Positions 19,004-54,556 of a DNA stretch of 64,000 nucleotides are shown piece by piece. The notes under the pieces are model-generated. The model saw only the letters and a list, made by a program, of their open reading frames with translations, was not told where the DNA came from and ran no database searches. Each line of letters starts with the position of its first letter. Position 1 is the first letter of the stretch. The position numbers and the translations under genes are program-made. Origin of the DNA: Paracyclopina nana (lineage: Eukaryota > Arthropoda > Copepoda > Cyclopoida > Cyclopettidae); the NCBI GenBank assembly GCA_019096065.1, contig JAGUCH010000007.1:4114501-4178500 (forward strand), read 5' to 3'.

Positions 19004-19011
19004 ACTTCCCC

Positions 19012-26093: not shown

Positions 26094-26128
26094 GATGAGG
26101 GATGCTGGCGTGACCCGGGCGGAGCCCT

Positions 26129-28959: not shown

Positions 28960-29154
28960 TGTAGGAGGTTCGTATAGACCCCCCGAGGATGACACGCGCG
29001 CCCGCGGGTAGCGATAGAAGAACTTGCTACTGAAACTAGTCGAGATGTTTACTCGAGTGCGTCCGTTTATTAACTGCTGTACAATTCGTTTCACCGGGAC
29101 GGGGCGCTCGCAGGCGCCCACAGAACACACCCGTATACCCGTGTTCCTGCTACA
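28960..29154 (-). repeat. 5' LTR of the nested gypsy element
   Basis: 195 bp, identical by eye to 18809-19003. The right flank begins AATT. Confidence 0.95.
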
Positions 29155-29179
29155 AATTTATAACCTCATTTTTCTAGTG

Positions 29180-31740: not shown

Positions 31741-32340
31741 TGAAGCGTGACATATAGTGGGGCCCGATGAGCGCAGGCAGCGCGCAGGCAGCTTCGCAGA
31801 GGACGAGAGCGAGGGAAGGCGCCGAGCGAAGAACGAGCCGGATCATCCAGGAGTCGCTTGTGGGACGCCATATCGCGATGTCCAAATAAGTTGAGCTGTA
31901 CTTAGTGATTGCAGACTTGAGACCTGGAGGGTCTAAGATAGCAATAAAAGCAGCCTATTGAATAACAAAACAGTGGTTTTTAGTGAACAAACTCCATCGA
32001 GAACTCAGCCTTTCAACCTGAGTTGTTCGCGTAGCGCTGACTTGAAGCCTCAGTTCATCCAGAGGCCTCTCAATTCAGTAGTGATCCTACGGTGTGGGAT
32101 ATCTCGCCTCTCAAGAGTCTCGTCTCCGGATCTGGAGGTGCATAGACGCTATAGAGCCTTGAGGTCACAAGGGGCCGAGGAAGAGGCCGATCAGGACTGT
32201 CGTACTTGCCAGTCCACGAGGAGACCAGAGTGGTAGACTAGAGAGGTAGAGGCCCCTCGTCTCAAGGGGAAGTCGATCCAGCCTCAGAGTGCAGAATACG
32301 TATTTAGGCCTCTGAGGCCCCGGTCATCCAACCCCTTTCA
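31741..32340 (+). repeat. 5' LTR of the giant element
   Basis: 600 bp, TG...CA, contains AATAAA at 31943-31948 (poly(A) signal for the R region). The same sequence is found at 53806-54405. Confidence 0.95.
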
Positions 32341-34202
32341 ATGGTGCCGCGACCCGGGAACGACCTGACAGGCGGAAGGATGGGCCTGTCAGTAGACCTC
32401 TAGGGAGTCTTCTTTGTCAGACCAACTGGCTTTGCGGGGGCACGGGCGGTGCAAGTGCCTAACTCGCGGGTTGGCCGATCTCGTCTGTCTCATCCTGACA
32501 GAAGATCGCGAATAGTGTAAAGTCGGCCTTCGGTGAAGGCAAAAAGGACCACGTGCGCGAGGAGAAGGGCCCACGAGTGTGTATAAGACCCCATTTCTTG
32601 TCTCGGCGTGAGAGGAGTGCCGGGTACCCTCAGAGTCTTCGAGAGATATAAACCTTTGTAGCCCGGGCTCTGAAAATACATTAGTCAAGTGGTGCGTTTG
32701 ACTGCGGGGGGATCCAGGATTCCTAGCTTACGCGACTCGAGCCACGCCCTCTGCGAAGAAAGTCGAGGTCGGAAGGATTGGACTTGACTTTGGACGCCCC
32801 GATCGGAGGAATCAGAAGAAATCTCGAGATTGGGCGGAATTTACGACTCCGCACCTGCGAGCCGGACACTGGAGTGATCCCGAGAAGAAGGAGGGGACAA
32901 GACGTTTAGAAAAAAGAAAGCCGAACTCAGGACGAGTTCACGGGAATTGCCGCACAGTCAGGCGAAAGTCGCAGTAGACCGCCGCAAAATCCCAAAAGTT
33001 AAGATTTAAAATACAGTATATTTTGCTCTGCCCACAGCTAACGAAACGCTTTGCTTATTTCTAGCTCCACGAAAAAATTAGGGAAAGTTTTACGAAAAAC
33101 TTTTCCCCCTTCTCAAGCTCGCACTTGAGACCAGATCTGCTCACTGCTAACGTAGCTTTTCCCGGTTTTGCTATAAAAAACCTCTTCTCTCAAGCCCAGC
33201 CTTGAGAAGTGCCCACGTTGCTTTTATTGGTTTTTGCTGTAAAAAACCATTCGCCTACTCTCAAGTACAGACTTGAGACCTCTCACACTTTGCATATACT
33301 ACAGTTAATTACGAATTCAAATAAAAACGGACAACTGATTGACAATTAAATAAAACGACTTTTCTGCTCAAATTATTACGCAAAAGTATCACCAAATTCG
33401 CACATTTTGCGCGCTGAAAAAGAGACCTTTTTCGCAGATTAAATCAGAGTAAAAAAGAGACATCTTTTGAAAAATTCTAAGCTTTGCACTGCAACCCACT
33501 TTCAAAAGTTGCAGAGCCAAGTTCAGCCACATCAAAACCCTTTTTTTTTCACCAGATAAAACTAGTTTGCCTTCAACTCAAAACCCAAGCAAGACAAGCC
33601 CATAAATAAACTAGAAGGGCCTATTATCTTGCCAACTCACGCACACAATTTTGCAACCTTATTCGCTACTCTCGAGCGTGGGCCGCAAGCTGTGTAGCCC
33701 CGAGTCATTTCAGCTCAGAAGAGAAAAACAGGTTTCTGCACAGCCAAATCTGGCCATCTACTCCAAGCATTCCTGCCACACTTTTATACGGAAAATAAAG
33801 AGTACTCTCTTGAATTAAACTTTGATTCAGCTGCAACCTACTTTCAAAAGTTGCAGAGCCAAGTTTAACCACACAAAGAACCCTTTGTTACTTCAATCCA
33901 GCCATAAATTGTGAAGCCCAAAATCCTCTTACACACAACCAGCAAAAACCGGCTCCACTCTAATCTTTTGCACACTTCACGATTCAGCGAGACGGCCCAG
34001 CATAAATAGTCTTGAAGGGCATCCAATCCAGCTGACTCACACCACAATTTGGCCAAGCACTCAGCTTCAAGCCATCATCATCATAAATCTTGCCTGAAGG
34101 TTTTAAAGGAGCGGCCTAAAACTGCACCGGCTAAACCACTTTTTGCACACTCGAGACTTCAATAGACATAACTTGAAATAAAAACCTTTTGCAAAAATCA
34201 CC
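32341..34202 (+). other. Untranslated leader of the giant element with repeated hairpins and duplications
   Basis: 1.86 kb before gag. Three hairpins with stem CTCAAG/CTTGAG lie at about 33111-33130, 33187-33208 and 33259-33278, roughly 75 bp apart, in repeats that also share TTTTGCT.TAAAAAACC. A second, longer direct repeat of about 340 bp starts with TTTCAAAAGTTGCAGAGCC at about 33500 and 33842. No credible ORF. Probably involved in packaging or translation of genomic RNA (inference). Confidence 0.75.
32342..32359 (+). other. Primer-binding site candidate of the giant element
   Basis: TGGTGCCGCGACCCGGGA begins one base after the 5' LTR; TGG pairs with the CCA end of a tRNA. The tRNA was not identified. 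Confidence 0.65.
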
Positions 34203-36578
34203 ATGGCTTCCAATGAAACCGACACTCACGACACTATGACCCGCGCACTTTATATCGCGAGAATTGCCGGTCACCTTGACCGAGATGAAGGCCAGGTCGA
34301 CCGGGAAATTAATGCACTCACGATTCTAAAAGGACCCATCGAAAATGTCATGCCTCTGTGGACCAAACGCGCGCGTTTCCCCGAGGAGCTCCCTGAAACA
34401 CAATTGACCCAGCTACAGCTAATTGAAGCCTGGAACACAGCCAGAAGTGAGGAAAATGACATTTGGCCACGTGAAAAGTCCGCCTCGGTCTCCGAGCACA
34501 TTGTGACGATCATGTCAGGCCTGAGGGAGGGATCTGCCTTGATGCAACTTATGCGAGTCATACGCTACATCCTACACATAAAAAACTCTGGTATCGACCC
34601 GATTGTTGTTCAAATCATCACGTATTTTCTTGGCCTTGAGGCCTTATCCGAGCTCATGGCCGTGAAAGAGAAGCTTACCGTGGTGGATAACATTCGAGCG
34701 GCCATCATATCCGCACTGCCAAACCCTCGCGAAAACATACTGCCTCTAGCTAGAGGAATCGAGATTGTTTCCATCATACTCGACCAGCAACAGATGCCTC
34801 AGAAAAATACTAATGTGCAACGAGAAGCTCAATTAGGAGGCATGAAAAAACCAGTGACTTTCGGGAATACGACAACACTTGGAGCCCGGGACCACCTCTC
34901 GAGCACACAAAATAACACGAGCCAACCTCAAATGCCCAGCTTTGATGCCAGCCGCTTCCACACCTCGGTAGATGAAGATACATTATCAGAGGTTCAGACT
35001 AAAGTCCTAGCAGGGGAGAATACGACCCCTGAGGAGCAGCGAATATTTTACAACCACTTACGCGATTTATATAACGATCAGATAGCGACTACAGCATTAA
35101 ACGCACTACGAGCCATCTACAGAAAATACGTAGGGAGTGACAAAAACGCGCACCGAGCAACGGAAATTAAAGCCAGGATTGAGGCCATTACTCGAGATGG
35201 AATAGCCCTGGCAGAAAGCCGGGTTCAGCACGAATCCTTCGAGGAACCCATATTTAATAGAATCAGCAGAATGGATATCTCTAGCGTCAACAATCGTGAA
35301 ACCGCTTTAGAAGCGGCCTCGCAGCTTGTCGACCCATCGACAAACGAGCGCGACAAGCAGAGAGAGATTTCAGCCACACTATTATTACTCACCAATGAGC
35401 CTAACCTTACTAATCTGCAGAAAGCAGCTTTTCAAGAAGCCTTCGTTAAAAACAGTCAAATGCTCGCAGCCCCGTCTGGAATTAGCAGCGTAACCTACTC
35501 ACTCGAAAATAACGAGCTGTACGTGCAACCTCCCCCGTGCGGAGCGGTTGCTCATCCGGATGCTAAGACTATTAAATTGATCCGACAGTCTCTGTACACA
35601 ACGAAATTCGATGCGAATTCCCCTGATAATCTGGACTCTTCGACGATGACCTTTTTCCGAGCCCTGGCCGACCAAGCATCTCTCAAGCAATGGTCTTGGA
35701 AAGCCACAATCGAAGCCCTATGCCTCATGTGCTTTCAAACCACGGTAGCAACAATACACACACTCATGATGGAAGGAGAGCAAGCCTTCCCCACCGTTTG
35801 GTCATATCTGCAATCATCGTCCCACACTAAGCCATCTTATCATGAAATCACACGAAAAATCAACAATTTGTATAACAACAATCAGCTAGGCTTCGGTCAA
35901 GCGATGGAACGTTTCTTAACACTCCGCACTCACCAATATAAAGGAAGATCGCTAGGCCCAGGATCAGCGGTCGCAGCCACACTCCTCGACGGTAAATCCT
36001 GGTTGGACAATTTCTACCCTAACGATGCCAACTTAATTGACGATCAATTTGAAAAACATTTGGCCAGCTCGGGCATTAAACCCAACAGCTCAGAGGCTTA
36101 CCATGCACTAATTCGACTAGTACAAAAGATGATTGGGAACAGTCCTCCACGTGCCCAGAAAGAAAAAGAGAAGGATCATAGATTGCCTCTCATCACAGGA
36201 GCTGAAAATCCAAGGCCACGCGTCCATGCCATTGAAATCGAAGGATCTGACGCAGGATCACAGGCCGATTTACGCTCCGTAATACAGAAAATGATTAAAG
36301 ACGAAATTCAAATTGCCGCTTTACAAGCCGTAAACGCTGGAGCAGCAGCTCAACCCGCTTCAAGCTCGAATGAGTTGAACCAATTCACCGACCCTGAAAA
36401 GACGGGAGCATGCTTACTCTGCAATCAAGCAGGCCACTTATTTAAAGTGTGCCGCGAATATCCGAATACGCCACGCACACACTTTCGAAACGTAGGCCGC
36501 TGCAGCTTTTGCGGAGGCTACCACAGAGCCTTAGAAAATCTACTTTGCTGGAAAATCAAAAAAGAAGCATTAAAATGA
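34203..36578 (+). CDS. Gag of the giant element
   Basis: 791 aa from an ATG in good context (CACCATGG). Mostly helical, charged sequence with no motif until the C terminus, where CLLCNQAGHLFKVC (CX2CX4HX4C, about residue 735) is a canonical retroviral zinc knuckle. A second Cys/His group, CSFCGGYH..C, follows. Longer than most gypsy Gags (usually 300-500 aa). The stop TGA overlaps the next ATG (ATGA at 36575-36578). Structural protein that forms the capsid and binds RNA. Confidence 0.9.
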   Translation: MASNETDTHDTMTRALYIARIAGHLDRDEGQVDREINALTILKGPIENVMPLWTKRARFPEELPETQLTQLQLIEAWNTARSEENDIWPREKSASVSEHIVTIMSGLREGSALMQLMRVIRYILHIKNSGIDPIVVQIITYFLGLEALSELMAVKEKLTVVDNIRAAIISALPNPRENILPLARGIEIVSIILDQQQMPQKNTNVQREAQLGGMKKPVTFGNTTTLGARDHLSSTQNNTSQPQMPSFDASRFHTSVDEDTLSEVQTKVLAGENTTPEEQRIFYNHLRDLYNDQIATTALNALRAIYRKYVGSDKNAHRATEIKARIEAITRDGIALAESRVQHESFEEPIFNRISRMDISSVNNRETALEAASQLVDPSTNERDKQREISATLLLLTNEPNLTNLQKAAFQEAFVKNSQMLAAPSGISSVTYSLENNELYVQPPPCGAVAHPDAKTIKLIRQSLYTTKFDANSPDNLDSSTMTFFRALADQASLKQWSWKATIEALCLMCFQTTVATIHTLMMEGEQAFPTVWSYLQSSSHTKPSYHEITRKINNLYNNNQLGFGQAMERFLTLRTHQYKGRSLGPGSAVAATLLDGKSWLDNFYPNDANLIDDQFEKHLASSGIKPNSSEAYHALIRLVQKMIGNSPPRAQKEKEKDHRLPLITGAENPRPRVHAIEIEGSDAGSQADLRSVIQKMIKDEIQIAALQAVNAGAAAQPASSSNELNQFTDPEKTGACLLCNQAGHLFKVCREYPNTPRTHFRNVGRCSFCGGYHRALENLLCWKIKKEALK

Positions 36579-39500
36579 GCACCAACAATAAAGATTTAAT
36601 TACACCAAATGCCTCACTAGCAGAGCCTCAAAAAGAGGCTGACAATACAAAAAACGCTGACGCAGACGAAACTAAGAGTTATAACTACGAGCTACCCCCT
36701 TTCATGCAAGGACACTTTTCCCGAGAATGCGGAAAGGCCAGTTTTTCATTCTACAGAGCTCAATCTGAAGCCAGGAAACTTAAGGAAACAGGAGTAGCAG
36801 AAGTAGCCAAAGTGTCCACGAAAACCCAGACTGAGATCGAAAGCACTTGTCATTACTTCGACGACGAGCCTGCCGATATCATCGAAACGTGGGACTCGGT
36901 CAGTAACCAGGGGAAACCTAAAACTGACAAGCCCGTAACAACAATCGAAAATAGCCCACTAGCCGACTCCAGCGAGGAGAAAACCTTACTAGAGCAAGGC
37001 AATATATGGGACTATGCAATTTACTCCTCACTGGCCATACTAGGAGCCTCCTTGGCCACCCAAGCTGTAAGGAACCCTCTAATTACCAAAGCAGCCTCTA
37101 CGGCCATCATCATCGCAGTCACTGGCAAAACCGTAGCCGAATACGCTAAGAATAACTTAACCAATTTAACTAGATTATTAGGCCTAAATAAGGAAAGCAA
37201 AGAAAAAGAAGTCGCATGCCTGAAAATAACCAATCGGACCGTGCCTTGCGAAAGCAGCACTGCTGAGCTCAACAAAGCACCAGTTACCGTAACAAAACTT
37301 GAGACTTCCACCCCTGCTGAGGCCCCAGTCTCGGCCACAGTCGTAGCCGAGACAGCTGAAGCAACAACCAATAATACAGGTGCAGCTGAAGATGATGATA
37401 TAATGACCATAATCCAGTCCAAAATTAATTCAGTGCAAGCAGTAAACTTTAGCACACACGTAAAGAAATCCCTAGATGAAGTAGACGTCTGGGGCAACGA
37501 GGACATTCAAAGTTGTCATTCACTAGAGTTAAATGACTTGGCAGATCGCCCATTTATTCACGTACAGCTACCAGGCCCGGTTTTCATCAAAGCGATGATC
37601 GACACGGGCTCGCAAAGCCAAATAATTTCGACGAAGCTCGTAGAAATCATCGAAAATAAATTAGGCTACAGCCTACCAAGAGTAGCCACCAGACACAAGC
37701 TAAAAGTATTCAACGGCGAATCGATACCTTCTTCCGAGGCAGTGATACTACAAATTCTGCTAGGAGGTAAAATTCTACTAAGAAAAGTCATGTTTCTAAT
37801 AGCAGACGTAGAAACGATGCTATTAATAGGCAATTCGCTTTTCGCACACAACGATGTAAGACTGACTTGTAAAGGAACCACACAATACGTAGAATTAATT
37901 GGAAAAATGTCAAAATACGGTAAAATACCATTGGAATTATCATCGCAGGAGTTTTACCCAGTAATACTAACCCATTCCGTGGCGTTGAGTCCAGGAGAGG
38001 AAATTACCACGTTGGCATACATCAAAGACGAAGCCCCCATACTGCCAGGCCTCGAGTACAACGAGGACACAGAATGGGAGGCCGACGAAGATGACGAATC
38101 GATTATCAGCCATATATCCAAATTTGAAAACCAACCTATGCTTTTCGAAGCGGAAGAATTCCTAAAGCCAGAGTTAACGGATGGCGCAATCACAAAAGCT
38201 GACCACAACGGAATGGTGGCCATCAACTTGAGAAACACATGCGAATTTCCAATACGACTTGACGGACAGCAGATAGTTGGACATGTAAATCTAATCGATT
38301 CGCACCGATTTAAAAAGACGGATAAAATAAATCGCATCAACCTGGGACTAAAAGCCATAGCTAGATATCCTTCCCAGTGTTATTGCCAGCCACACGGAAT
38401 AATTGCTCAATTTTCAGACGTAAATGGGCTTACACGCACCACGTTTAATGCCTTTGACAGAGCAAACCCATTAAAAGGTAAAAATAGACCTAAAATTGTA
38501 TACCGGGACATGCAGCTATTTTTGGCCAGCGACCAACAAGACTCGTACGACCAACTCACAGATGAGTACCTGCAAAAATGGCTCGCGAAGAAAGAGATAA
38601 CTCACATCCCATGCATATTCGTAATTCCCGTTGAGCAACACTTATCGGGAGAAATGAAGAGGATTCTTTGCACATGCAATCGACTATTCAACAATTTTAA
38701 GCTTTTACACTTAAGGCACAATCATTGTTGCCACCGACACCAAACATTAGCCACAGCCCCTATTACCTCCTTCCTAGCTGGATACGAATACACAGTTTTA
38801 ACCATCTTCGCTGACGGCCTTGAATGCTTCAACTTCCAATACCAAAAGAACAAAGGAGAGGATTTCTATGACCTCAAAGTAATGGACTCACAGCTGAGAC
38901 TATACAAATTGGCCAACGATATTCATATAATCCTACACATCCGTCAAGAGGACGTGGAAGACACCGAATACACCACGGCCCTGATATACACTATATTAGG
39001 ACAATTACGCTTCAAGCAAACGAGCGACTACATTTACGTACGGGCCGTGACCGAATGTCTAATAAACTTAAACGATAACCCTCTATTTTTGGCCAGTGCA
39101 GCAGCCCTCACACTTCTTTCCGGGCTAAAATACTACCCCGAAGAAAGCACTTTTCAAGACCTACGAACCGACTATAATATACACCACTTTGTCTACATAC
39201 CCGAAGGCTGCCGCTGCAACCTATGTCTAAAGCGAGAAAATGATCAACCAGTCACGGTCTGCGGAGTAAAGACAATCTTCGAAGGTCACCTGGGAGAGTA
39301 CCACAACCGCCAGACGCTGATCAGAAAAACCTCAGAACCGGACTTAGTGAGCGCATCACTAGACATAGCCGAACATACCGAGACGGAGAAACAGCTATTT
39401 GAAGAAGTATATCAGCTTCTAATAAATCACCCTTCAAGTATAACGGAGAACACGATATTCAACGGGCTAGGCGGCTATTTTTTCGCCACCCCTGATGAAG

Positions 39501-42500
39501 AGTTCGACAAGTTCGATCTGAGCCACATACCTGAAAGCCACAGGGAGAAATTTAGGTCCCTTATGAAATCATACAACGACTGCTTCACCAATGACCCGCG
39601 CGCGTACAAATTATGGAATAGCCCTCCTATAGAGTTCGAAACAAAAGATAACGTAAAGGTCGTGGCCAAGGCCTATAATATGGGACGACAGGACGTCGCA
39701 CTCTGTGACCGAAAGATAGGCCTTATGCTGGCCAGTGGCTTGATTGAGCCCGTAGATGCAAGCCTTAATAAATTTGGCTCGAGCCCCTGTTTCATTCGCA
39801 ATAGAAAAAACGATGAAGATACTCCGATGAAGCAGCGCAAAGTCAGATTACTATATGACCTCCAGGAGCTAAACAGCCACATTGTGTACCGTGAGACAGG
39901 CCATGTAATACCACCAATACAAACACTTTTGCCGATGCTTAATAAGGCCTGTCTGCTAACCACAGTAGATTACGCATCGGGCTTCGACCAGTGTAGATTA
40001 GCAGAAAGCTCAGCTGATTTATCTTGCTTATGTGTAACCTCCCCACGAAGTATTTACAGAGGCCACCTTTTCAGGCCCAAGACCATCCCGATGGGACTAG
40101 CACTATCACCAGTAGTTTTCTCCACAATTGTGCAACAGTCCTTACATCCCGAAATACTCGACAGATGCACATGCTATGTAGACGATTTGTGCCTGGCACG
40201 GGTCAAAAACGAGCCCGCTCCCGCAGATGATAACGACTACGAATGCCATTTACGAGACTTCCAGCTCATGCTAGAAAGCATGCGCAACTTAAATGCTCTA
40301 CTTTCATTAAAGAAAAGCAAAGTAGCAGTAAAAGAAGTTGAAGTCTTAGGCCACATAATAAAGATAGCACAAAACGGACGAGTAACAATGGAAATGCCAC
40401 CGAAATACCGGGACGCATTTGACAATTACCCGCCACCAAAAACTAGAAAGCAACTGCAGCGCTTCGTAGGCCTCACAAATTGGCTCAGCCAATATTGCCC
40501 TAGCCTGGGAGCGTACATAGCCCCGATATTAGATATCCTGGGCACCGACGATGGCCGGGCTGGAAAATTCACCCTTTCTCCATTCCAAGAAAAATGCTTT
40601 AAAGCCATTGTCGAAGAAATAAAATTAGGCCTCACGCTAGCCTTACCTTCTTACGGAGAAACATATGTAATAGTTGACGCCGGGACAATAAGCTACTCAG
40701 CACTGCTGGCGGAAGTGGACCCTCAAGGCAAAATGGTCTGCCTCGGAGCCCACTCGGCCAGATTCCCATTAGCTATTGTACTCAATTACTGCTCATTCAC
40801 AAAAGAATGCGTGGGAATATTAGCAGCAGTCACACATTATAAGAAAATTCTTGATGCATGCACACGAGTGATAATTATCACAGATTGCATGGCAATTGCT
40901 TCCATCCTCTCGCATTCATTTACCACAAACAATTCGTTCATGACGCGTTTAGCATCTCGATTATATGCACTACCATACTCCTGGAGACTGAGAACGGTCC
41001 CAAGGGACCAACTAGACGTGGTAGATGTTCTACTGAATAAATTTAAATTCTCGACTGACGAAACGATGTTTTTCGCCCCTTACAGTAACTCATGCCAGCT
41101 TACAAAAGACCTATACGCAGGCAAGCTAGAACTGCCAGAGGATCTGAAAAATAAAGTAATAACCACGCAAGAACTTCTCACTCATATTTACAACACGTTA
41201 CTAAATAATGGCCTTCTTTCCAAGCAACTATTAGACAAACGTTTAGCATCGCTCCGAGACAAGTGGACTGACTTGATAGGCCCATGTGAAAACGAGCCAT
41301 GGGACGAAGATAGCCTGGTCATTGTCAAAGATGACCCGCATGAAGAACCTATCAAGCACACTCATGAGGAAGAGATAAATCCATACTCAGCCGTTAGCTA
41401 CTTAGAAAATAACCCCGTAGTGGAAATACTCTCAGTAAAAAGAGCACCCGAGCCGAGGCTACCGGGAATTACTCGCAATTTGCTCATTAAACTTCAGAGA
41501 AACTGCGAAGAAACGCAAACCATTGTAAAGCTACTACTCATCAGCGATAAAAAGCACATCCCTCCGGAACTTTCAAGCCGCTTTAGAGTACTTGACGCAT
41601 CGATACTAGTGGCTCGCAAGAACCTAAAAAGGCCCTTTTCGCAGGCCAGCAATACGAAAATATATATGAGCACTCATAACACAGCATATTTACTAGCATG
41701 TACTCACCTATTACATAACCACTTAGGTGCGAATAAAATGAATCTACTCTTTACACAATCTATGTACGGCACTTACAGTGCAAGAATTGCACGCATTATA
41801 TCCTCAGCATGCATCCACTGTAGCCTAAACAAACAATCAAACTCCCGTTTTATAGGAAAAAGCCGGTTCCCACTACCGAAAGCCCCTTTTGACATGGTCT
41901 CCATAGATTTAGCATTCTTCGACGAAACACTGATAACCGGCAGAAATGCCACAGTGGCTTTTATAATGGTAGACATGTTCAGTAAGCTTCTTATAGTCAA
42001 GCCTCTCACAGATGCCAAGTTCAAACAAATATCAACCGCCATGGAAGAGATATTCTCCACATATGGCACCCCAAAGCACATAATTGCTGACAACGGAGGT
42101 AACCTTACTCGAAATCTAGCCATGCAGGAATTAATAAATAAGTATAGCGTGGAGACCGTAGGATTACTATTTACCACTCCTCATAAACACACAAATAGTT
42201 ATGCAGAAAGTAACATACGCCTCTTAAGAAAAGCTCTACTGCAAAATCTGCAATGCTATAATAAAAAGCAGAGCGAAGTACTAAAATATACAGTGTTCGC
42301 CCTCAACAATCGACCGCTAACCTTTTACAAATATGTTGATGAAAAAGGTCACACCATCATTCCTACACCGTTCAGCCTATTTTTTGACCGAAAGCCCGTT
42401 TTTGACATCGGACATGACATTTATGACATTCTTTCGGAAACAGAAAAATTAGTACAGAAAAAACAATGGGCCGAAATAATACAGGAATACGATGAAAAGG

Positions 42501-44182: not shown

Positions 44183-44263
44183 CCCTCAGGCGCCAGGCGT
44201 GCCGTCTCTTCTTAGCAACCCGTGCAACACTGCTCCCCAGTACACTCGCTTAAGCCTTGAAAA

Positions 44264-44896
44264 ATGGTGCTTAACGCATGCAACCTATTAGCTTGGAAAT
44301 CTGAGAAAAAACAACTAGCACTTGAATTGATAAGACAATATTGGGTGAGAATGAGCTTCTCATCGCCTACACTTCACGAACAGGACATTTTACACGAACT
44401 GTATGAGTTCGGAGTATACCAACACGTGAAAAAGGTTGGTAGACACAAAGCCTTTGTGCGGGCCACATATGACCTCCTGAGGCCTTCCCCATGGCATTCC
44501 TTAGTATCACGAGAAACAATATCTTCCCACGGCACCTCAAGCTTGTACAACTTCGACGAGCTAATTGGACTTACCGAAGGATTTATAAGAAAAAATAAAG
44601 GGATGGCCTACAAGCAGGCACTAAGTGAACATTACCTCAGTAACCGACACTATCCAGAACATTTCAGGGACGAACACCTGCGCCCTACACCAATGCCTCT
44701 GGACGCGTTATACGTGAGCCTAATTAGCTTAATGGCTTGCCGCTGGAGACTACACCTCAGAGGCAACCCAGAAATGGATCACGAGAAATTGGTGGCCATT
44801 CCTGAGCAATTCTTAGAGGACCACTGCCAGAATTACTGCGAAACAGACAAGCTTCGAATTAAATCAATTTTGGCCCTCTCAAACAGCGAAACATAA
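44264..44896 (+). CDS. DUF5662-like accessory protein, copy 1
   Basis: 210 aa. The centre aligns with copy 2: HKAFV, SLYNFDELIGLTEGFI, AYKQALSEHYLSN and RHYPEHF, then PTPMPLDALYVSLISL. The spacing of an acidic or His D-x-S-x-x-x-x-E region followed by A-x-x-HHY-x-x-N-x-HHPEH resembles DUF5662, known mainly from phages and large DNA viruses and thought to be HD-like metal-binding folds. The identification is by memory of the motif and should be tested. AATAAA at 44911 ends the gene. A TATATAAAGG box at 44163 in the pol tail could serve as promoter. Confidence 0.7.
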   Translation: MVLNACNLLAWKSEKKQLALELIRQYWVRMSFSSPTLHEQDILHELYEFGVYQHVKKVGRHKAFVRATYDLLRPSPWHSLVSRETISSHGTSSLYNFDELIGLTEGFIRKNKGMAYKQALSEHYLSNRHYPEHFRDEHLRPTPMPLDALYVSLISLMACRWRLHLRGNPEMDHEKLVAIPEQFLEDHCQNYCETDKLRIKSILALSNSET

Positions 44897-45038
44897 CAAA
44901 AAGGCTTGTCAATAAAGGCCAAAGAACACGAAATTGCCGATAAAAATATGAATAAAAAATAAAAGCCTTACATGTAACATCAGGACAAATAAACTAATAT
45001 AGCCTTTCTCATAAAACTTTCCTTAAATTTATTTCATA

Positions 45039-45773
45039 ATGCATAACACTTTTAGACCAGACAGCAGACAGTCCACTCATCACATTCTCTCGCTGCTACA
45101 GGAAACGATCCTGGAACTTAGCAGTCTCTTTGCGTCCACTATGGAGCCTACAGCACAGAAATTAATTATCAGAACTCCCGAATGGAAAAATACAGCTATA
45201 CGGCTCATGAAAAAACACTGGATAGACAAACAGCCAATTCCACCCCCAATTGGGATGACCAACCTTATGGACCGCGCCATGTTACACGAGCTGGCACGAT
45301 TCGGCATCGACCAGTACGTACAGCAAGTATGCACGCACAAAGCCTTTGTGACCAAAACTTTCGAGCGCTTCATTCGCCCGCCGTGGGAAAACGTAATCTC
45401 GCGAGACGAGATCGCAGCCTACGACGACTCCTCATTATATGAATTCGACGAGTTGGTTGGCCTGACCGAAGGCATCATTCATGGCCGTAAAGGAGCTGCC
45501 TACGACAGGGCCATCAGGCATCATTATCTGCGTAACCAGCACCACCCTGAACACTACGTCGACGGAAACGGCCAGCCCACTCCTATGCCGTTTGCACCCC
45601 TCTTAGCAAGCGCCTTAGGTCTAATTGCCACACGCTGGGAGAAACAGCTACAGGGCGACCCACAAGTCGACGACAAAACCCTGTCAATGATTGAGCCCCA
45701 AACATTGGACAATTACCATGAGCTTGACAAGATGCGAATTATGGGAATTATGTCGCTATTTAGGACACAATAA
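45039..45773 (+). CDS. DUF5662-like accessory protein, copy 2
   Basis: 244 aa from the first ATG; alignment with copy 1 suggests the ATG at 45141 (MEPTAQKL) may be the real start. Shared blocks: HKAFVTKTFERFIRP, SLYEFDELVGLTEGII, AIRHHYLRNQHHPEHY, PTPMPFAPL and ATRWEKQLQGDPQ. This copy keeps the full HHY-N-HHPEH motif of DUF5662-type proteins, while copy 1 has lost one His (RHYPEH). The two genes are tandem duplicates (about 140 bp apart) and considerably diverged. AATAAA at 45789. A role such as nucleotide or RNA processing is only a guess. Confidence 0.72.
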   Translation: MHNTFRPDSRQSTHHILSLLQETILELSSLFASTMEPTAQKLIIRTPEWKNTAIRLMKKHWIDKQPIPPPIGMTNLMDRAMLHELARFGIDQYVQQVCTHKAFVTKTFERFIRPPWENVISRDEIAAYDDSSLYEFDELVGLTEGIIHGRKGAAYDRAIRHHYLRNQHHPEHYVDGNGQPTPMPFAPLLASALGLIATRWEKQLQGDPQVDDKTLSMIEPQTLDNYHELDKMRIMGIMSLFRTQ

Positions 45774-46314
45774 ACTAGCACCAACAGCAATAAATATGAA
45801 TAATAAATATATATATATATACATAATAAAATTCAGCACACTCTCGCACTCTAGTGCGATATGTAGCTCCCAAATATGGCCACAAATTCGGTTAGGGTGA
45901 CCAGGTCACCATAACCTCTCACAACCTCAAATAGTCACGCACATCACACCAAATCTGGTTAGGGTGATGTCCGTGACACCGGTGCGTAAAACGGAAGCCA
46001 AAAATAAGACAAAATTTTTTTTGCCACCCACCTTTTCCGAAAAGGGGGGGGGGGAATGCAAGGCATACACACACGGATAGATCAATACGCTTTTTTGCAT
46101 CAAATACGGTGTTTTATTTAACAAATCCCAAAACCTTAATCATGACACCCAAAAACAACTTTACTTCAGTCACATAAAACCAGATACAGCCGGCTGATTC
46201 ACCCAACTGAGAGTTCACCAACTATAAAAGGTTAAGCTCAATCAGCAAAGCTCTCATTCAGCCCAAAAAGCAACCAGCGGAAGGACCGCATTGAGTGCTC
46301 TCTCAACGGAGCTA
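45774..46314. other. Spacer with two copies of a polypurine-tract-like motif
   Basis: GGTTAGGGTGA occurs at about 45890 and 45958; the same motif abuts the 3' LTR at 53794-53804. A minus-strand AATAAA (plus TTTATT near 46113) probably ends the antisense gene that stops at 46315. Confidence 0.6.
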
Positions 46315-47396
46315 TCACGGATCAATCATAGCCAGAGGAAATCTCTCATCAGTTGCCTCAGTTGAGTCTACCACATCAGCCTTGGAATCTTCAGAAATAC
46401 GAAAACGCAGCCCAGCGTGCTCAGCAGTTGGCCTTTTACAAGAAACCCTATCGTTGTACAAGACACCGGCCACCTGACAAAAAGAGAAAAATAAACCTCT
46501 AAATTAGCACCGCATTGCAACTGTGACTTACCAGATTCACGCACCCGCGCTTGCAACCAATGCCAAGCCTACCAAGGGCACAGCTCTCCAAGGGGAACAA
46601 ATACCATTTTGCAGCAGTTCCAAAACCAACCAGGTATACGCCTATCAGGAAACTTGCCCCCGATGCGGCGGCGCCTCCAAGAGGAACAAAAACCATTTCG
46701 CTACACGAGCCGGGCCCACCCAGCCAGCCGCATTGGCCCCTCCCACCGGCCTCGGCCTCGCCCATCGGCCTAACCCCTCGAACATGCCGGACCACGCCTT
46801 CACAGAGAGGTGGGGCCGCCCTCGAAGACCGAGGCGTCCCCACAGCACATTGACGAGTACAGGCCACAACTATCGAGCCAAACGCAGAGAGGCAGGCGAC
46901 ACGCCCAGTCCCGCCCATCGTCAGCGTGCCCCGCCCTCTCACCACGTCGGCCACCACGCCCTCGCCACGAAGATGGAATAGCAGGATAACTATAACTTCG
47001 ATTTTTATAAAACCACACTCTGTAACGAAAAAGAAAAAATATAACCTGTACTAATCACTTTGGTATAACAAAAACACTTACTTGACTTCCACGGGGACCA
47101 TTCAATGACCCGCCTTCGCGAGAAGAAGTTCGTCGACGACCACGCCCACGTCAGCACCCACGCCGAAAATGACATCGGCCACGCCTCAGATTCCAGTACG
47201 AGAAAGTTGGCTGGACTTGGACTACACCACCAACGCTGCCCACGCCTCCAGTCTTGCAACTCAGCTCGAGCTCGGCCACACCCACGTCTTGCGCTCGGCC
47301 ACACCCAGGACCTGACAATGACAAGGTCGCACGCGAGCCCCGCCCGCCTGATCACCACGAGGATTATTATAACAGCGATTTTTATAAAATCACATC
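46315..47396 (-). CDS. Antisense spliced gene of the giant element, partial model
   Basis: Three minus-strand exons with matching phases: 47082-47396 (enters at phase 1, leaves at phase 1), 46532-47019, 46315-46473 (stop TGA). Acceptors GTTGCAG, GTTACAG and TTTGTCAG; donors GTAAGTG and GTAAGTC. The last exon, beginning VAGVLYNDRVSCKRP, looks well coding; an AATAAA lies about 200 bp past the stop. The first two exons start with similar sequence (CDFIKIAVIIILVV and CGFIKIEVIVILLF), an internal exon duplication with hydrophobic character. No start exon was found. GC-rich, low-complexity composition lowers confidence; an untranslated RNA is the alternative. Confidence 0.4.
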
Positions 47397-47448
47397 CTGC
47401 AACAAAATACAATTTACATATGCGATACTTTCGAAAACAGATTACTTA

Positions 47449-47777
47449 CTAAACTTCTATAGAGTCGTCGATGACCTGCTCCTCGAGTCCCAGGATTCGG
47501 ACGACGAACCGGGATCCCCGGGGCAAGTCATGCGGCTCTAAGTAAAGCTGACTCACCACCGGGAATAACAACCGCGGCCGCCTCCGAAAAACCCACACGA
47601 GGAACGGCAACCCGAGGTAGATTCGGCATATCAGCCCCGCCGCTACCGTAATTAAGAGGCTGACACAGCCCCAAAAAGCGGCCTAATCAAAGCCCTAGAA
47701 AACAGAGCTATTTCTAATAAAAAAGTAAACAAAGATTGTCAAATTCCACTCACACTTTCTGGAGCCGTGACAGCCAT
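47449..47777 (-). CDS. Small antisense membrane protein gene of the giant element, 2 exons, 85 aa
   Basis: Exon 1, 47754-47777: ATG in strong context (CCGGCCATGG) coding MAVTAPES, donor GTGAGT. Exon 2, 47449-47682, acceptor GATTAG, in phase 0. The product has one strong membrane segment near the N terminus (FWGCVSLLITVAAGLICRIY) followed by a basic stop-transfer run (FRRRPRLL) and a soluble tail rich in Glu and Asp. A TATA-like element (TTTATAGTTTTATAG) lies upstream on the minus strand, at about 47815-47830. No family recognised. Confidence 0.5.
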
Positions 47778-48218
47778 GGCCGGCGCCACAGACGTCGAGG
47801 TCAGCCCAGTCCCACTATAAAACTATAAATTCGGAAAAGTCAAGCCATAAAGCCACGAATTCACGGACAATTTTACCTCACGCACAATAAAAGACATTTT
47901 CGCCGCCTCAAGCAAAAATCACAAGTCCAAATAGAGCTACCAGACCAAATTTAACTAAAAGTCCCCGTTGCAATGCGCAAAAGCCAAAAGGAGCTTAGAA
48001 CGCGTCAACTATGACATCTGGTACCTCGGCTAGACAACGCGACCATATATTAGGACTCAGAAAAGGGCCAAAACCGCCCCAGAAACGCCGAAACTGCGAG
48101 CTACAATATCAAACAAAAGCAAGCAACCCCCAAGTGAAATGTATTTGCCATGATTTATTAAACAAGTAAAATTAAAACTCCATGAACAAATAACCATGCA
48201 CGCAAAATGAGGCTGTAA

Positions 48219-49940
48219 TTACGAATCGGCCGCGCCATCGTCATGAATTTCAACGAGAACCTCAGCTTTGGTGTCATCACCAGCAGTGTCAGCGGCGTTC
48301 TTAATGGCTCCAAGTGCAACATCAACTTGTCTGCCCAAATCCTCTAAAATAACACGCTGGGCCACTGTGCAAAGTGCCCCGTTGACCTTATCATGCAGCG
48401 CCTGATGCGCTGCCCGATTGCGAGCTTCTATACCCGCAATTAGCCCCTCCACACTTGGACCCGCTACACCCGGGCGTAGCCCACCAGCCTTCGCCACGGG
48501 GCCACCAACAGCTTTTTGGCCCGTTTTAGCCGCTGATCCACACTTCTTACGGCCACTTCTACTCGCATCATCACACGAATCCTCCTGCTTCTCGGCCGAC
48601 AGAACTTGAACAGTGCTTGTTCCTCCCCCTCCAACGACCACCTGCTGGAGTTCGACATCATAGGTCACAGGCTCACTCGGGGGAAAACGTCGGTGGTATC
48701 GGTTCAAACACCAATTGTCGAGGCGACGATACCCCCAGATGCAGCCCCAGGCCAATGCCGACAAAATAATCTGCAACAAAAGGCCGAGCATAAGATTGAG
48801 CCCTCAAAAAGGAAGTCAACTAGAACTTACTATGATCCACACACCAAAGGAAATGGTGCCAAAAATGCCAAGTAAATCCACACTTTCGGGTTCAGCTGGC
48901 TCGCCCTTGGGAGCACCCGGGCATCCAGGTGCGGCCTCCGATGAAAACGCAAATTGCGGAGCAGCTGTGGTAAATTGGGCCACCGCTGTAGTCACTTTAT
49001 CCACTATTTCACTGACTGGCAAATCCTATCAAGCATAAATATAAAGCATACAGAATTACTATCAGATCAAAAATCATAAGTAAATAATTAGCATTACTGG
49101 AAAATACAAGTCGACCACTTCGCCCAAATTGAACGACCGCAGTGATTGGAGCACAGCCGATAATTTGGTGCAGGGAAAGGCAGTCCAAAACTGCTCTGCA
49201 TAATATCGGTCTGCCTCAAATTCCTCCCGGCCCAAAGAGAGCTCATAAAGCAGTCGACCAAAGTAATGTCTTACCTCAGTACTGCCCGCCTCTTTCGTAG
49301 ACGGGAGAACGAAACTCATGTCTCGTATATGTGAGCGTACAGGAGCAATACTTCGAGCTTAATGAGAAATAATCACCTTTCTTCCTGGCAGCCACAGATC
49401 GCGCCCTAGATCATCTCCCCCCGCGAAAGACATCGCGCATGCAATATCAATTCAGCAATAAATCAGGGACATCATAAACGCCCCCTTTTAAAAAAGCGGT
49501 AGAGAGAAAAATGTAAACCGGTTTTTGCATCTTGAAAACGAGACTATACAACTGCAAGTCGAGCTCACTCCCCGCAGCGAGGTCACATTTCCTCAACGCA
49601 GCTTTAAGCTCCTCGCGCCGTAAATCAAGCTGACACCAGCATTCAGCTCGAGCACTGATTTCACCACAAATGAAGGGAAAAAATGAATGCAAAATTAACT
49701 AAAATATTGTGATATAAATATACACAATGGGTACATGCACCCTGAAAAAGAGTGAATGGCCCGCTCATAACGTCGCACGCTACGCTTAAAAATCCCGAAT
49801 TCACACTGCTCGAAACGAGACAAAAAACAAGGCAGGGGGACGAAATCAAAATTCCCATGGCCATAAAGCATGAGGAGTTATAACACATTACTTGAGTAAA
49901 ACTCATGTAACTCGGCCATAAACCGCTCAATCATCATCAT
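48219..49940 (-). CDS. Antisense spliced membrane-protein gene of the giant element
   Basis: Well supported exons: 49098-49319 (contains MSFVLPSTKEAGSTEV), 48831-49025, 48219-48770 (stop), all joined in phase 0 through GT-AG; these give 322 aa from the ATG at 49319. The second junction exactly builds one membrane segment, LLGIFGTISFGVWII followed by IILSALAWGCIWGY: each half lies in a different exon. After it comes a Ser/Lys/Gly-rich tail. An upstream exon, 49892-49940, with three ATGs (then IERFMAELHEF), donor GTAATG, fits the 49.3-kb exon in phase and would extend the protein. A minus-strand AATAAA at 48154-48159 is the poly(A) signal. Transcription runs against gag, pol and env. No family recognised. 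Confidence 0.62.
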
Positions 49941-50173
49941 TATTCTGGCTTGTACAGTCTTGCCAGAAAAAAGGGCTTGGCCCCAGGGCAAAAACCCACG
50001 CTTTAAAAATAACCGGTTCCCGAGTGCTCAACCCTTTGTGACTACAAGGTCACACAGAAATGGGCCAGCCAGAGATGCAGATAAATACAGCTTGCAAAAA
50101 TGAGAAGGACTCATTCCACTCGCAACCAGCATTGCAGCCAGCACTACGACTACGTTAAGCCCCACGAAACGAA
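49941..50173 (+). promoter_or_regulatory. Core promoter of the spliced sense accessory gene
   Basis: A GATAAATA box (50080-50087) lies 32 bp before the A of a TCATTC initiator (50111-50116), the arthropod TATA-Inr spacing. The gene's ATG follows at 50174. Confidence 0.55.
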
Positions 50174-51402
50174 ATGAGCCAAGATAACCAAGCCGAGACC
50201 CCCGGGGTCCCCCTAGGCCCCATGGAAGTCGACCGTAGCGACACTCAGGAAACTCCAGCTCAGCCCAATAATGAACGTGAGGTCGACGACGATTCACCCG
50301 CGGAACCTGAGCGGCCCACCCTGGAAAAATGGGCACGCGATCTCGACTACTACTACAGCTTGGAGGAGCTAACCGCGCACCACACTCCTGAGCGCTTTAT
50401 CGAGGGCCTAATAGCAATAGAAAAAGCCCGACAACCAGTGCAAAGCCCATTTATTCGCCAATTGAACTTATTAAAAGGTACACTAAAAAGAAACTCTCTT
50501 TTATTAACTTGTCATGCTCATTGACACATTATAAATCAGGTCCCAGGCCAGAAGTTCAGTGGGGCATGCAACTGGAAGCCTGGCCCATGAAAAATGGCGA
50601 GCGATATGAGCCATCCTCTTTTCGCCAACCAATACGCATCCGTAACTTAGCAAGGTTGACCTTCGAGATCCGCCCCGGAGCAGCTGAAAGCGACGAGATT
50701 CCACGAGTAGCCCTAGTTCTTCTGGGCGGAGAAGAGGCTAACCCATACCCACTGTACAACACAACGGGCAACGCACTTGAGATTCAAGACATGTGTCCAG
50801 TATTGAGTCCCACACTGGGCTCCCACTACAAGGTGGCCACCATCGGAAACGAAGGCTTGCCCGGCGTCTTCGTAGAAGCACCGGTGCGCAACAGAAAAGT
50901 CGACGTTTTGATTAAACTTGACGAGTCTTACGTAGAGCCCTCCTTATACATCGACCCGTCCACCATTGCAGTCCAGATCCTGGTGATCTCGCCGGAGTAT
51001 CTGGCCAACGGCCTGCTTAGTTTTGGAAGCTTCTTCCCACTCAAAGTAGACATGCGCTACCAAGCCTGCCCGGAGGTCCAATCCTTCATCGCTCAACTTG
51101 AAGAGGAGAACCCCCGCATGGTGCGCTACTTGCAAGGATGTTTCACCCTGCAGGAGCGCAAAGCCCTACAACAACGTCAGCGAGAATATAAGGAACGTGA
51201 GAATAGAGAAAGGACTACTTCACCACCGACAAGCTACGCAGCCGCTGCCAGAGCCAGTCATCGCCCAGCGCCCTCCAGAAGACCAGAGAGGACCGAGCCC
51301 TCGACTCAAATCGAGCGGGAAATCGCGTCCGCGCTTGAACAGCTCGAGCCCAATAAAAGAGAACGCCTAAAACGGGAGCTGCTCAGCATGGTGAAAAAAT
51401 AA
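50174..51402 (+). CDS. Spliced sense accessory gene of the giant element, 388 aa
   Basis: Exons 50174-50477 and 50540-51402, split by a 62-bp GT-AG intron, phase 1. The N terminus is acidic and Pro-rich (MSQDNQAETPGVPLGPMEVD). The middle (about 105-305) alternates short hydrophobic strands, such as RIRNLARLTFEIRPGAA, RVALVLLGGEEANPYPL and DVLIKLDESYVEP, and looks like a beta-rich fold. The C terminus is a charged coil with Arg-rich linker (REYKERENRERTT) and a Leu/Glu/Lys helix. No family recognised; matrix-like or nucleic-acid-binding roles are only possibilities. ATTAAA follows at about 51425. Confidence 0.72.
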
Positions 51403-51708
51403 CCCGATGACCTCACTCCACCATTAAAACTTACTGAAACGGCCCGGACCTCTGCGAGAACAGGATTGCACAATTGCCTTGTACATAACTGTCAACATAA
51501 ATCCCCATAACATTTTTGAATCAATGCTCACTAACCATAGAACTGGCGCCAGCATGAATGAAATAAAAATACTTGCATACCACACAAATGCGCGAATTCT
51601 TCCCAGACGCGCACCCGACTAACAAATGCATCCCAAAGATGCACTTTTACAGCACAAATGCGCACGCCCGGGACCAGAAAAATGCAGCCTAAAAATGCAC
51701 TTTTGCAG

Positions 51709-51745
51709 TATAAATCAGAGGCCCCTTGCACATTGCACTCAGTTC
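51709..51745 (+). promoter_or_regulatory. Internal core promoter for env of the giant element
   Basis: TATAAAT at 51709 and the initiator TCAGTT at 51739, with the first T of TATA 32 bp before the initiator A, an ideal arthropod TATA/Inr pair. The start codon chosen for env (51770) follows 29 bp later. Just upstream, 51580-51705 holds repeated AAATGCAC.TTT.CAG units. Confidence 0.65.
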
Positions 51746-51769
51746 AACAAGAACAACGTTAAAGGCAAC

Positions 51770-53668
51770 ATGAAAGTGTTCACTCACGCAACCGCTTACT
51801 TAATACTAGCACTTGCTGACATCTCTGCGCCCGCATTTATTCACGAATATGGGCAAGTGACGGAGAATTCAATTTGCATGAACAACTTCGCACTTAGGCC
51901 GTACCGTCGACTATATCATGTGCAAGAAGAAGCTGAGATGACAGTGCTGGACCTTGAACCTTACGCACAAGCATTAACCAAGGTCAGGGCCGAAACGAAA
52001 GACTCATTAGTGAAAATACGCCGCCACCCGCAAGATTTAAGCGTCCCCAGATTCCTGATGGACTACAACAATAAAATAGTAGCCCTGACCAACGGAGACG
52101 TGAAAGATTTGGACAAATTGTGCAACAAAAGGATCCCCGGCTTCGAGGGATTCGAACCCGAGTCAAACGAAGAAATGTCCGAATTCCTACGTAAGGCGTT
52201 AATCCTACGGTCAGGCTCGGGAAATAAACACACGTTTAATATGAAGATCGACGTAGTCTTTAAATCCATTGTGACCCTCGATAAAAAACTGGTATTCGAA
52301 AACATGGAAGGAGCAGAGCCCAGTGGCACCTATGTCGAGGGCTTTCCTACACTCACAGTTGAAACAGAGCCACAATTCCCCAGCAAAATCAAGAAAATGA
52401 CCGTGTTTCCACCCGTCACAGCAGTGCAAGACGCAGTCTGCCAGCGGAAATATCCTGCCTTGATAAACGACAAGAGTGCATTCAACAAGTTTACCAACAC
52501 AGTAGACTCTTACCTGAGAAAAATGGAAAGTGCCATCAAAGTCTTAGGGGAGCTAGCACTCTCCGGGTCAGCCCGCGAGTTCGCGACCAACATGATGAGA
52601 AAAGCCAAAAGAGCAACACTACCTGCCGCTCTTCGACAAGCCGTGCAAATGATAGAAAAGATCTCCAGCATAGTAAAAGTAGGTGGCATCGATAGCGAGG
52701 AACTTAACACCTTCATGGGAGGCCTCAAGCTAGTAGCCCAGTTCAGCAAAGCCATAAAAAGATTAAAGAATATATATCGCTTCCCATACGCGAACGAAGC
52801 AACTGAGGAACTCGATGAAATCAGATACGTGGGAATTGCCAACACTATCGAGGCCAACGATTACGTAATCCGAGGGGTAATGCGTCAAGACTCGCGAGAT
52901 CCCGATCCGGAAACAACTTACCTCATAATTAGCAGAAGCCTGGACGGCAAGATTCTCAGGCCCAAATACTTAACACAGTACAAGAAGAAGGCCTACGTGA
53001 CCAACGAGTTGCCCAACTACACCGATTGCTACGAGGAGGAAGACGGGACCATTGTGTGCGAGCCCAACGAGTATCAGCCTATTCCCCAAGAGACACTATG
53101 TGCACACAGCCTGTTAGGAAAGGCAATAGATGACCCGTTCGACGTGTGCGAGCTCCAGCAACTAGGCGATAACACGCTCACACCCGTGGACTGCGATTTA
53201 TACACAGGAATTGCAAACGTGGTCAAGGAAACTACCCTCAACCGCACTTGTGCAGACGACGACACGCAAAAAATCATCTTGGAGCCCGGATCTTACCAAA
53301 TCAAGTCGAACTGCCAACTGGAACTGAATGATCAAACCATCGGCGTGCCAGAGATGGCCAAGGAGTCGGACATCGCACAGTACATACACAAACTGCCGGA
53401 AAAGACCTGGCTCAATATTTTCACTCGATGGGAAGTGTACACCACTGTTGCATGCCTCTCAGGAGCCATCGGACTAATACTAGCCTGCATAATCTGGAGA
53501 AAGCGACATCAATGCTGTAAATCACGGCCTACTCGCCCAACGAGACGAAGGGGCTCGCGCGACACCGAAGAGACACGATCACTGCAAACGCGACAACGAT
53601 ATAGCGATAAATTAGCCAACAATTTAACTCCACTCACCACATATCCCTCAATTTCTAGACTAGAATAA
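51770..53668 (+). CDS. Envelope glycoprotein (env) of the giant element
   Basis: 632 aa from the ATG at 51770, which begins a signal peptide (MKVFTHATAYLILALADISA) and follows an internal TATA/Inr; an upstream in-frame ATG at 51626 is the alternative. The ectodomain has a coiled-coil region (about 245-350) and the basic run RKAKR (about 277-281) before a moderately hydrophobic stretch, perhaps a cleavage site with fusion segment. Many Cys follow (about 420-540), then the membrane anchor TVACLSGAIGLILACIIW (about 556-577), then a basic tail. The layout is that of a class I-like retroviral or F-type Env. It is unlike the env of the nested gypsy element. The stop overlaps AATAAA. Confidence 0.82.
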   Translation: MKVFTHATAYLILALADISAPAFIHEYGQVTENSICMNNFALRPYRRLYHVQEEAEMTVLDLEPYAQALTKVRAETKDSLVKIRRHPQDLSVPRFLMDYNNKIVALTNGDVKDLDKLCNKRIPGFEGFEPESNEEMSEFLRKALILRSGSGNKHTFNMKIDVVFKSIVTLDKKLVFENMEGAEPSGTYVEGFPTLTVETEPQFPSKIKKMTVFPPVTAVQDAVCQRKYPALINDKSAFNKFTNTVDSYLRKMESAIKVLGELALSGSAREFATNMMRKAKRATLPAALRQAVQMIEKISSIVKVGGIDSEELNTFMGGLKLVAQFSKAIKRLKNIYRFPYANEATEELDEIRYVGIANTIEANDYVIRGVMRQDSRDPDPETTYLIISRSLDGKILRPKYLTQYKKKAYVTNELPNYTDCYEEEDGTIVCEPNEYQPIPQETLCAHSLLGKAIDDPFDVCELQQLGDNTLTPVDCDLYTGIANVVKETTLNRTCADDDTQKIILEPGSYQIKSNCQLELNDQTIGVPEMAKESDIAQYIHKLPEKTWLNIFTRWEVYTTVACLSGAIGLILACIIWRKRHQCCKSRPTRPTRRRGSRDTEETRSLQTRQRYSDKLANNLTPLTTYPSISRLE

Positions 53669-53790
53669 ACACTGCAACTTACTTCTCATCAGGGAACATC
53701 CCCCACGTCCTGTGGCCACCCTTTCTTTTATTTTTTAGGTTAGTGACCTCGTCATCCAAGGTCACGCTGGACTTGGCCTCCGAGGTCAAA

Positions 53791-53805
53791 ATTGGTTAGG
53801 GTGAT
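53791..53805 (+). other. Polypurine tract candidate of the giant element
   Basis: ATTGGTTAGGGTGAT directly precedes the 3' LTR. The purine-rich core is less pure than usual. Confidence 0.5.
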
Positions 53806-54405
53806 TGAAGCGTGACATATAGTGGGGCCCGATGAGCGCAGGCAGCGCGCAGGCAGCTTCGCAGAGGACGAGAGCGAGGGAAGGCGCCGAGCGAAGAACG
53901 AGCCGGATCATCCAGGAGTCGCTTGTGGGACGCCATATCGCGATGTCCAAATAAGTTGAGCTGTACTTAGTGATTGCAGACTTGAGACCTGGAGGGTCTA
54001 AGATAGCAATAAAAGCAGCCTATTGAATAACAAAACAGTGGTTTTTAGTGAACAAACTCCATCGAGAACTCAGCCTTTCAACCTGAGTTGTTCGCGTAGC
54101 GCTGACTTGAAGCCTCAGTTCATCCAGAGGCCTCTCAATTCAGTAGTGATCCTACGGTGTGGGATATCTCGCCTCTCAAGAGTCTCGTCTCCGGATCTGG
54201 AGGTGCATAGACGCTATAGAGCCTTGAGGTCACAAGGGGCCGAGGAAGAGGCCGATCAGGACTGTCGTACTTGCCAGTCCACGAGGAGACCAGAGTGGTA
54301 GACTAGAGAGGTAGAGGCCCCTCGTCTCAAGGGGAAGTCGATCCAGCCTCAGAGTGCAGAATACGTATTTAGGCCTCTGAGGCCCCGGTCATCCAACCCC
54401 TTTCA
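53806..54405 (+). repeat. 3' LTR of the giant element
   Basis: 600 bp, matches the 5' LTR throughout as read by eye. Followed by the target duplication GTAA. Its AATAAA at 54009 would end transcripts of the element. Confidence 0.95.
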
Positions 54406-54556
54406 GTAACTCTGACAACTCGCAAAGTTGCAAGTTTGGGGCCACATCACGTGGGCTATAGACCATAATTGTAGCGCTCAGCTGCTGCCATCTTTCGCTC
54501 CTCAGAGCTTAAGTATATATTACTATTAGCGAAAAGTCGTGATGCAATATGTCGCT

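Follow-up and report, generated by a model that had tools for sequence, protein, structure and literature searches.

A giant, probable endogenous retrovirus of Ty3/gypsy type with intron-containing genes on both strands in the copepod Paracyclopina nana

The window analysed here, a stretch of 64,000 nucleotides of the Paracyclopina nana genome, contains a 22.7-kb insertion that, to judge from its sequence, is very probably the integrated form of a giant endogenous retrovirus that bears env, is Ty3/gypsy-like (Metaviridae-like) and belongs to a lineage not matched to a described one. As the initial annotation had proposed, two matching 600-bp LTRs and a GTAA duplication surround one insertion, the LTRs being identical at 600 of 600 bases and GTAA lying on both sides, and gag, an env-like open reading frame, a DUF5662-like gene pair and a spliced sense gene are all present inside it. 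Its features, in window coordinates, are the following.

31737–31740: left target-site duplication, GTAA (right copy at 54406–54409)
31741–54405: giant element, 22.7 kb, bounded by the LTR pair and by GTAA on both sides
31741–32340, plus strand: 5′ LTR, 600 bp, TG...CA, same as 53806–54405
32342–32359, plus strand: primer binding site, one base past the 5′ LTR, beginning TGG
34203–36578, plus strand: gag, open reading frame of 791 aa
36575–44182, plus strand: pol, 2535 aa from its ATG, with protease, RT (YVDD), RNase H and integrase
44264–44896, plus strand: DUF5662-like gene 1, PF18907 at E 1.9e-6
45039–45773, plus strand: DUF5662-like gene 2, PF18907 at E 5.6e-9, start codon uncertain
47897–47449, minus strand: predicted gene as2, exons 47897–47877, 47822–47754 and 47682–47449, 107 aa
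49319–48219, minus strand: predicted gene as1, exons 49319–49098, 49025–48831 and 48770–48219, 322 aa
50174–51402, plus strand: spliced sense gene, exons 50174–50477 and 50540–51402, intron 50478–50539 (62 bp)
51770–53668, plus strand: env-like gene, open reading frame of 632 aa
53806–54405, plus strand: 3′ LTR, 600 bp, TG...CA

A search of the assembly (91.95 Mb in 10 contigs) for further copies with the same LTRs, which the initial annotation had recommended, returned 31 LTR matches. Fourteen of these, at 97–100% identity, pair into seven copies of 22.65–22.86 kb, namely the window copy and six more; one (96%) stands alone as a solo LTR flanked by an AAAT duplication, and 16 (70–85%) are older relatives or fragments. 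Because each of the seven copies has a perfect 4-bp target duplication of its own and the LTRs within the pairs show few mismatches (0, 1, 1, 0, 1, 3 and 1), the copies represent separate, recent insertions and not an accident of assembly. The primer binding site is common to all seven, which vary just beyond it; primer binding sites complementary to tRNA begin TGG. No clear polypurine tract was seen directly before the 3′ LTR (53776–53805), although the copies are recent. All seven copies keep open frames in DUF5662-like gene 2, in the sense gene and in those exons of as1 and as2 that were tested, and gag and env are broken in some of them. Elsewhere in the window, a second gypsy-type element occupies 18805–29155 on the minus strand, with gag, protease, RT/RNase H/integrase and 200-bp end repeats that are 99.5% identical. 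Its env-like open reading frame (19015–21510) has a match (E 3e-76) to PF24664, the Monjiviricetes fusion glycoprotein, whose type is that of negative-strand RNA viruses. Two tandem repeats of a 145-bp unit, 96% alike, lie at 16056–16342.

The C-terminal end of Gag carries two zinc-knuckle-like Cys/His motifs recognised from the sequence, and its Pfam match to zf-CCHC_2 is weak (E 0.028). The pol gene had been described as double-length, which holds for its size; it is not a duplication, since there is a single set of protease, RT, RNase H and integrase; the protein further comprises a long N-terminal portion, about 550 aa of spacer and an extension at the C-terminus. Five of the seven own pols are open at full length, one has one stop, and one matches from residue 695. 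Omega for pol is about 0.08–0.13 in four comparisons, with changes mostly synonymous, and the catalytic residues of all four enzymes are invariant across five family members, including the Y and both D of the RT motif that reads YVDD in the window. Pfam RT_RNaseH was matched in all five of these Pols and rve in three, the window's own Pol not being among the three, and the protease matches fall below the Pfam cut-off. Compared with solved structures, the RT is closest to 4ol8 (E 7.8e-16), which we take to be Ty3, followed by 4hkq (8.3e-11), 8r0s (2.6e-9) and 7kse (5.6e-9), presumably of a gammaretrovirus, a caulimovirus and a foamy virus, respectively. The closest solved RT together with the Pfam matches supports assignment of Pol as Ty3/gypsy-like. 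In the integrase (42089–42208), 38 residues separate the last two catalytic residues, both invariant in the five family members; the usual spacing is 35.

The start codon of pol in the window overlaps the gag stop as ATGA. The junction was read in 17 copies from four pol families, labelled in this analysis F1 (the window's own) to F4: F1 has the ATGA overlap, F2 and F3 a TAATG overlap and F4 an abutting TAAATG, and one copy has a stop 9 bases upstream. We infer that Pol may be made by stop–start translation at this junction. Both UAAUG and AUGA are described as overlaps for coupled termination–reinitiation, and influenza B and the non-LTR element SART1 make use of the former (excerpts of PMC5972666). 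According to a survey cited in the excerpted part of PMC5009743, 28 of 51 animal elements have their pol in the -1 frame.

The same genome holds many related elements. At least 11 sister pols fall into the three further families F2, F3 and F4, at 40–46% identity to F1. Sister gags occupy at least 48 places, 47 of which have a sense gene 10.8–23.9 kb downstream on the same strand, and sister envs at least 60 places at 28–32% identity, of which 56 have a match uninterrupted by stops and 56 a sense gene 0.3–4.4 kb upstream. These are lower bounds, because only some of the candidates were scored (18 of 584 for pol, 57 of 126 for gag and 70 of 117 for env). The sense gene itself, for which all 87 candidates were scored, recurs in 75 sister places at 23–27% identity and is the signature gene of the lineage. 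Nine of the 11 sister pols have a scored env, and from the pol match to the env end they span 13.1–21.4 kb, compared with 16.2 kb in the window, so that the sister elements are probably similar or larger in size (those of F4 smaller). A search with the last exon of as2 gave 78 matches, comprising the seven own copies (81–100%) and 71 in sister elements (40–54%). Among the latter, 64 lie on the strand opposite the sense gene at a distance of 2583–3024 bases (2860 bases in the window), none lies on the same strand, and seven have no scored sense gene within 6 kb. The sister elements thus carry gag, sense gene, env and as2 in the same order, plus pol among the 11 sister pols scored. Outside this genome, a 25,934-base contig in a public collection encodes a relative (P0003) with a Pol of 2574 aa that is 49% identical over the searched region.

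These distributions bear on the possibility that we are dealing with an ordinary gypsy element in which the genes at 44.2–51.4 kb are a chance nested insertion or captured host genes, to which we assign a negligible probability. Its best points are a somewhat higher G+C content at 46–48 kb (0.50, against 0.43–0.45 over pol at 36–44 kb) and the first 5.6 kb of the block at 44183–53805, where identity to most other copies is only about 93%; yet the DNA of this block matches all seven copies at 92–100%, each copy aligning in one to three segments with gaps no longer than about 120 bases, and the sense gene and as2 recur in a fixed arrangement at their 75 and 71 sister places. Chance insertion of the segment is refuted by these two observations. 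The initial annotation would have been contradicted had other copies with these LTRs lacked the 44.2–51.4 kb genes, and this is not the case, as all seven carry them; its broader suggestion of an undescribed retroelement or retrovirus lineage gains support from the block being present in every copy and from the gene order shared with the sister elements. On the sense strand of 32001–54000, A exceeds T and C exceeds G in every 2-kb step, the stretches of the antisense genes included.

The env-like protein of the window copy has a hydrophobic N-terminus, a KAKR cleavage-like site and one predicted C-terminal transmembrane segment. No relative was found among 8000 candidates scored in the protein search, and no match among solved structures (PDB) or in Pfam; it is therefore by position and layout that the gene is called env. 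An alternative is that the element is a purely intracellular retrotransposon with no infectious stage, its env-like gene encoding no fusogen; we consider this unlikely, though a serious possibility, since the protein resembles no known class in these searches and copies can multiply in a genome without infection. Against it stand the retention of the env-like frame at the 60 or more sister places, mostly free of stops, the transmembrane segment and cleavage-like site, and the presence of a related Pol in another collection. We favor an endogenous retrovirus that would have an infectious stage.

A block of spliced genes on the opposite strand had also been proposed, and of this block as1 and as2 stand up to codon statistics and comparison of splice sites. 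In as1, comparison with the C2 copy gives 26 synonymous and 19 nonsynonymous changes, where shuffles predict 13.2 synonymous (omega about 0.30), and comparison with an older, partly degenerate relative gives 95 and 88, with 53.3 synonymous expected (omega about 0.38); part of the latter changes reflect decay, because this relative has a stop in its last exon. The pairwise comparison of as2 yields 28 synonymous and 20 nonsynonymous changes with 12.9 synonymous expected (omega about 0.26). For the sense gene, exon 2 compared with the C2 copy has 13 synonymous and 2 nonsynonymous changes with 5.0 synonymous expected (omega about 0.08), and exon 1 has 4 and 2, a weak signal (P about 0.07). For as1, as2 and exon 2 of the sense gene, at most two of 2000 shuffles reach the observed synonymous count in each case. 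On the minus strand, the exon-like units at about 46.3–47.4 kb (46310–47445) gave no selection signal in the codon test. They consist of two repeats with strong splice-like sites and similar hydrophobic stretches.

Base composition, or coding constraint acting on the sense strand, could conceivably have produced the antisense frames as a by-product, and one opposite-strand frame does mirror part of the signal in the two-sequence comparisons, passing P 0.05 more weakly than the predicted frame in as1 (P 0.02) and as2 (P 0.007), as one also does for sense exon 2. We nonetheless judge this highly improbable: of the six frames of as1 and as2, the predicted antisense one has the strongest signal, that of the others being weaker or absent, as2 is conserved across the sister elements, and changes in length are absorbed by antisense introns. 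In three copies the first as1 intron measures 72, 57 and 57 bases and the second 60, 61 and 80, and in two copies the as2 introns measure 54 and 56 and 71 and 70 bases. The GT–AG ends are kept in every copy read, and the second as1 intron and both as2 introns differ in length by non-multiples of three, whereas gaps in exons are multiples of three and keep the frame. Purifying selection in the predicted frames and the conserved GT–AG introns thus indicate that as1, as2 and the sense gene are coding. The as1 protein has one predicted transmembrane (hydrophobic) segment, which spans the second splice junction, and was found only in F1 and in one older relative. The as2 protein begins MSFIVRE and has one predicted transmembrane segment, with a hydrophobic window at 30–62 of 107 aa followed by an RRRPR cluster. 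Family F4 gave no as2 match; a 167-aa antisense open reading frame lies opposite its sense gene in all seven places, five of them open. The as2 of the C2 copy (window 47250–47750 compared with L055) is just 81% identical, the other own copies being 96–100% identical, and the substitutions of the C2 copy are concentrated at as2, which suggests exchange with a diverged relative.

The two DUF5662-like genes are 42% identical to each other and have relatives on five IMG/VR contigs and four bacterial contigs. In an alignment with eight phage or bacterial sequences (L059, identical to L058, having been dropped), the motifs HDxSK and HYxxNRHHPEHF, HD dyad included, are present in all eight relatives. 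The dyad position reads HG in copy 1 and YD in copy 2, and both copies are without the later aspartate before W and keep the NxHxPEH core. This alignment relates the pair to proteins of phages and bacteria, whose HD dyad it has lost. If DUF5662 is, as we assume, an HD-type metal-binding enzyme, the element's pair may therefore be non-catalytic. In this genome DUF5662 is confined to F1, save one degenerate and one lone copy. The lone copy is a DUF5662-like open frame (29%) at G000:C2:11424870-11425400, away from the element copies.

We envisage that the LTR promoter would drive a full-length sense RNA serving as genome and as Gag mRNA, that ribosomes ending Gag would restart at the overlapping AUG to yield Pol, and that Env and the sense-gene product would come from spliced or separate mRNAs, the sense intron requiring export of unspliced RNA as in retroviruses. 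The antisense genes would be expressed from an internal promoter of the element, with the integrated DNA as template. The packaged RNA of retroviruses is the sense strand, which lacks the antisense splice sites, and the antisense introns would for this reason persist. Presumably as1 and as2 are membrane proteins, most likely acting at the cell surface or on release and spread, and the layout of as2 would be that of small cell–cell fusion or regulatory membrane proteins.

More tentatively, these elements may represent a deep, undescribed giant animal retrovirus lineage with a two-sided programme, in which Gag and Pol arise by stop–start translation from sense RNA and conserved membrane-protein genes with introns are expressed from the opposite strand of the provirus, and in which as2 could be a small cell–cell fusion protein beside env; we hold this possibility with some reserve. 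If it is true, the provirus would behave much as the genome of a small DNA virus does, with an early strand and a late strand. On the reading favored above, a reverse-transcribing element can pass 22 kb and keep introns by way of genes on the strand that is not packaged. The 71 or more natural replicas of one antisense gene would allow the origin and function of such genes to be tested, stop–start translation would be added as a likely route to Pol in an LTR element, and the element is a case of an animal retroelement with a gene pair related to those of phages or bacteria.

The combination of an env-bearing animal gypsy lineage with conserved, intron-containing antisense membrane genes, a signature sense gene and stop–start Pol was not found in the databases and literature searched, a search that was not exhaustive. 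With Metaviridae (Ty3/gypsy) of errantivirus-like type the element shares LTRs, the 4-bp duplication, the order protease–RT–RNase H–integrase and an env downstream of pol; it differs from env-bearing Metaviridae in its antisense spliced genes, its signature sense gene before env and its stop–start gag–pol junction. It is also larger than typical members, by a factor of two to three. Such a size is not in itself a novelty, since Burro elements are longer than 30 kb and Ogre elements attain 25 kb (excerpts of PMC6431247). The initial annotation had set the element apart from Burro, Ogre and Terminons, and for the features compared this holds by their descriptions in the same excerpts. A variant of the planarian Burro type is, in our estimate, quite improbable. 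Burro is likewise a gypsy-like element of about this size that has env and accessory domains and has been proposed as a provirus; its env, however, is enclosed in frame by gag and pol within a single giant open reading frame of 4873 aa, and antisense genes are not mentioned in the excerpted description (PMC6431247). In the window element gag and pol are separate frames and env is a separate gene downstream of pol, and none of the Burro accessory domains was matched in Pfam by the element proteins scanned. The Terminons of rotifers share giant size and extra genes and are Penelope-like, not LTR elements (PMC6431247, in excerpt), whereas the window element has LTRs and an RT/RNase H/integrase of LTR type.

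The plant Retand/Grande and Ogre elements likewise have a long region between pol and the 3′ LTR (excerpts of PMC11963269 and PMC6431247). In Retand this region holds conserved antisense frames, mostly with a TRP28 domain, and by the excerpted account none of its sense frames has the transmembrane segments expected of env (PMC11963269); PF04195 (TRP28) had no match in four antisense pieces of our elements (one as2 exon, two as1 exons and one F4 frame). The sORF2/FAST-like proteins of MDG1-group retrotransposons, 63–107 aa long with an ectodomain of about 30 (PMC11952523, in excerpt), resemble as2 in layout, with its roughly 30 residues before the transmembrane segment, basic cluster after it and 107 aa, on a topology that is predicted. 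The MGxxxS/T N-myristoylation motif of FAST-like proteins is absent from as2, as it is from Stalker1 and Stalker2, and as2 is antisense, whereas all FAST-like candidates in the excerpts of PMC11952523 are in sense orientation. HBZ and ASP are likewise protein genes on the antisense strand of a provirus, a likeness of layout; HBZ RNA has spliced and unspliced forms, spliced antisense RNA thus being known in HTLV-1, and ASP is a membrane protein (excerpts of PMC10186651). HBZ and ASP are driven from the 3′ LTR (PMC10186651), whereas the antisense genes of the window element, at least two in number, lie in its interior.
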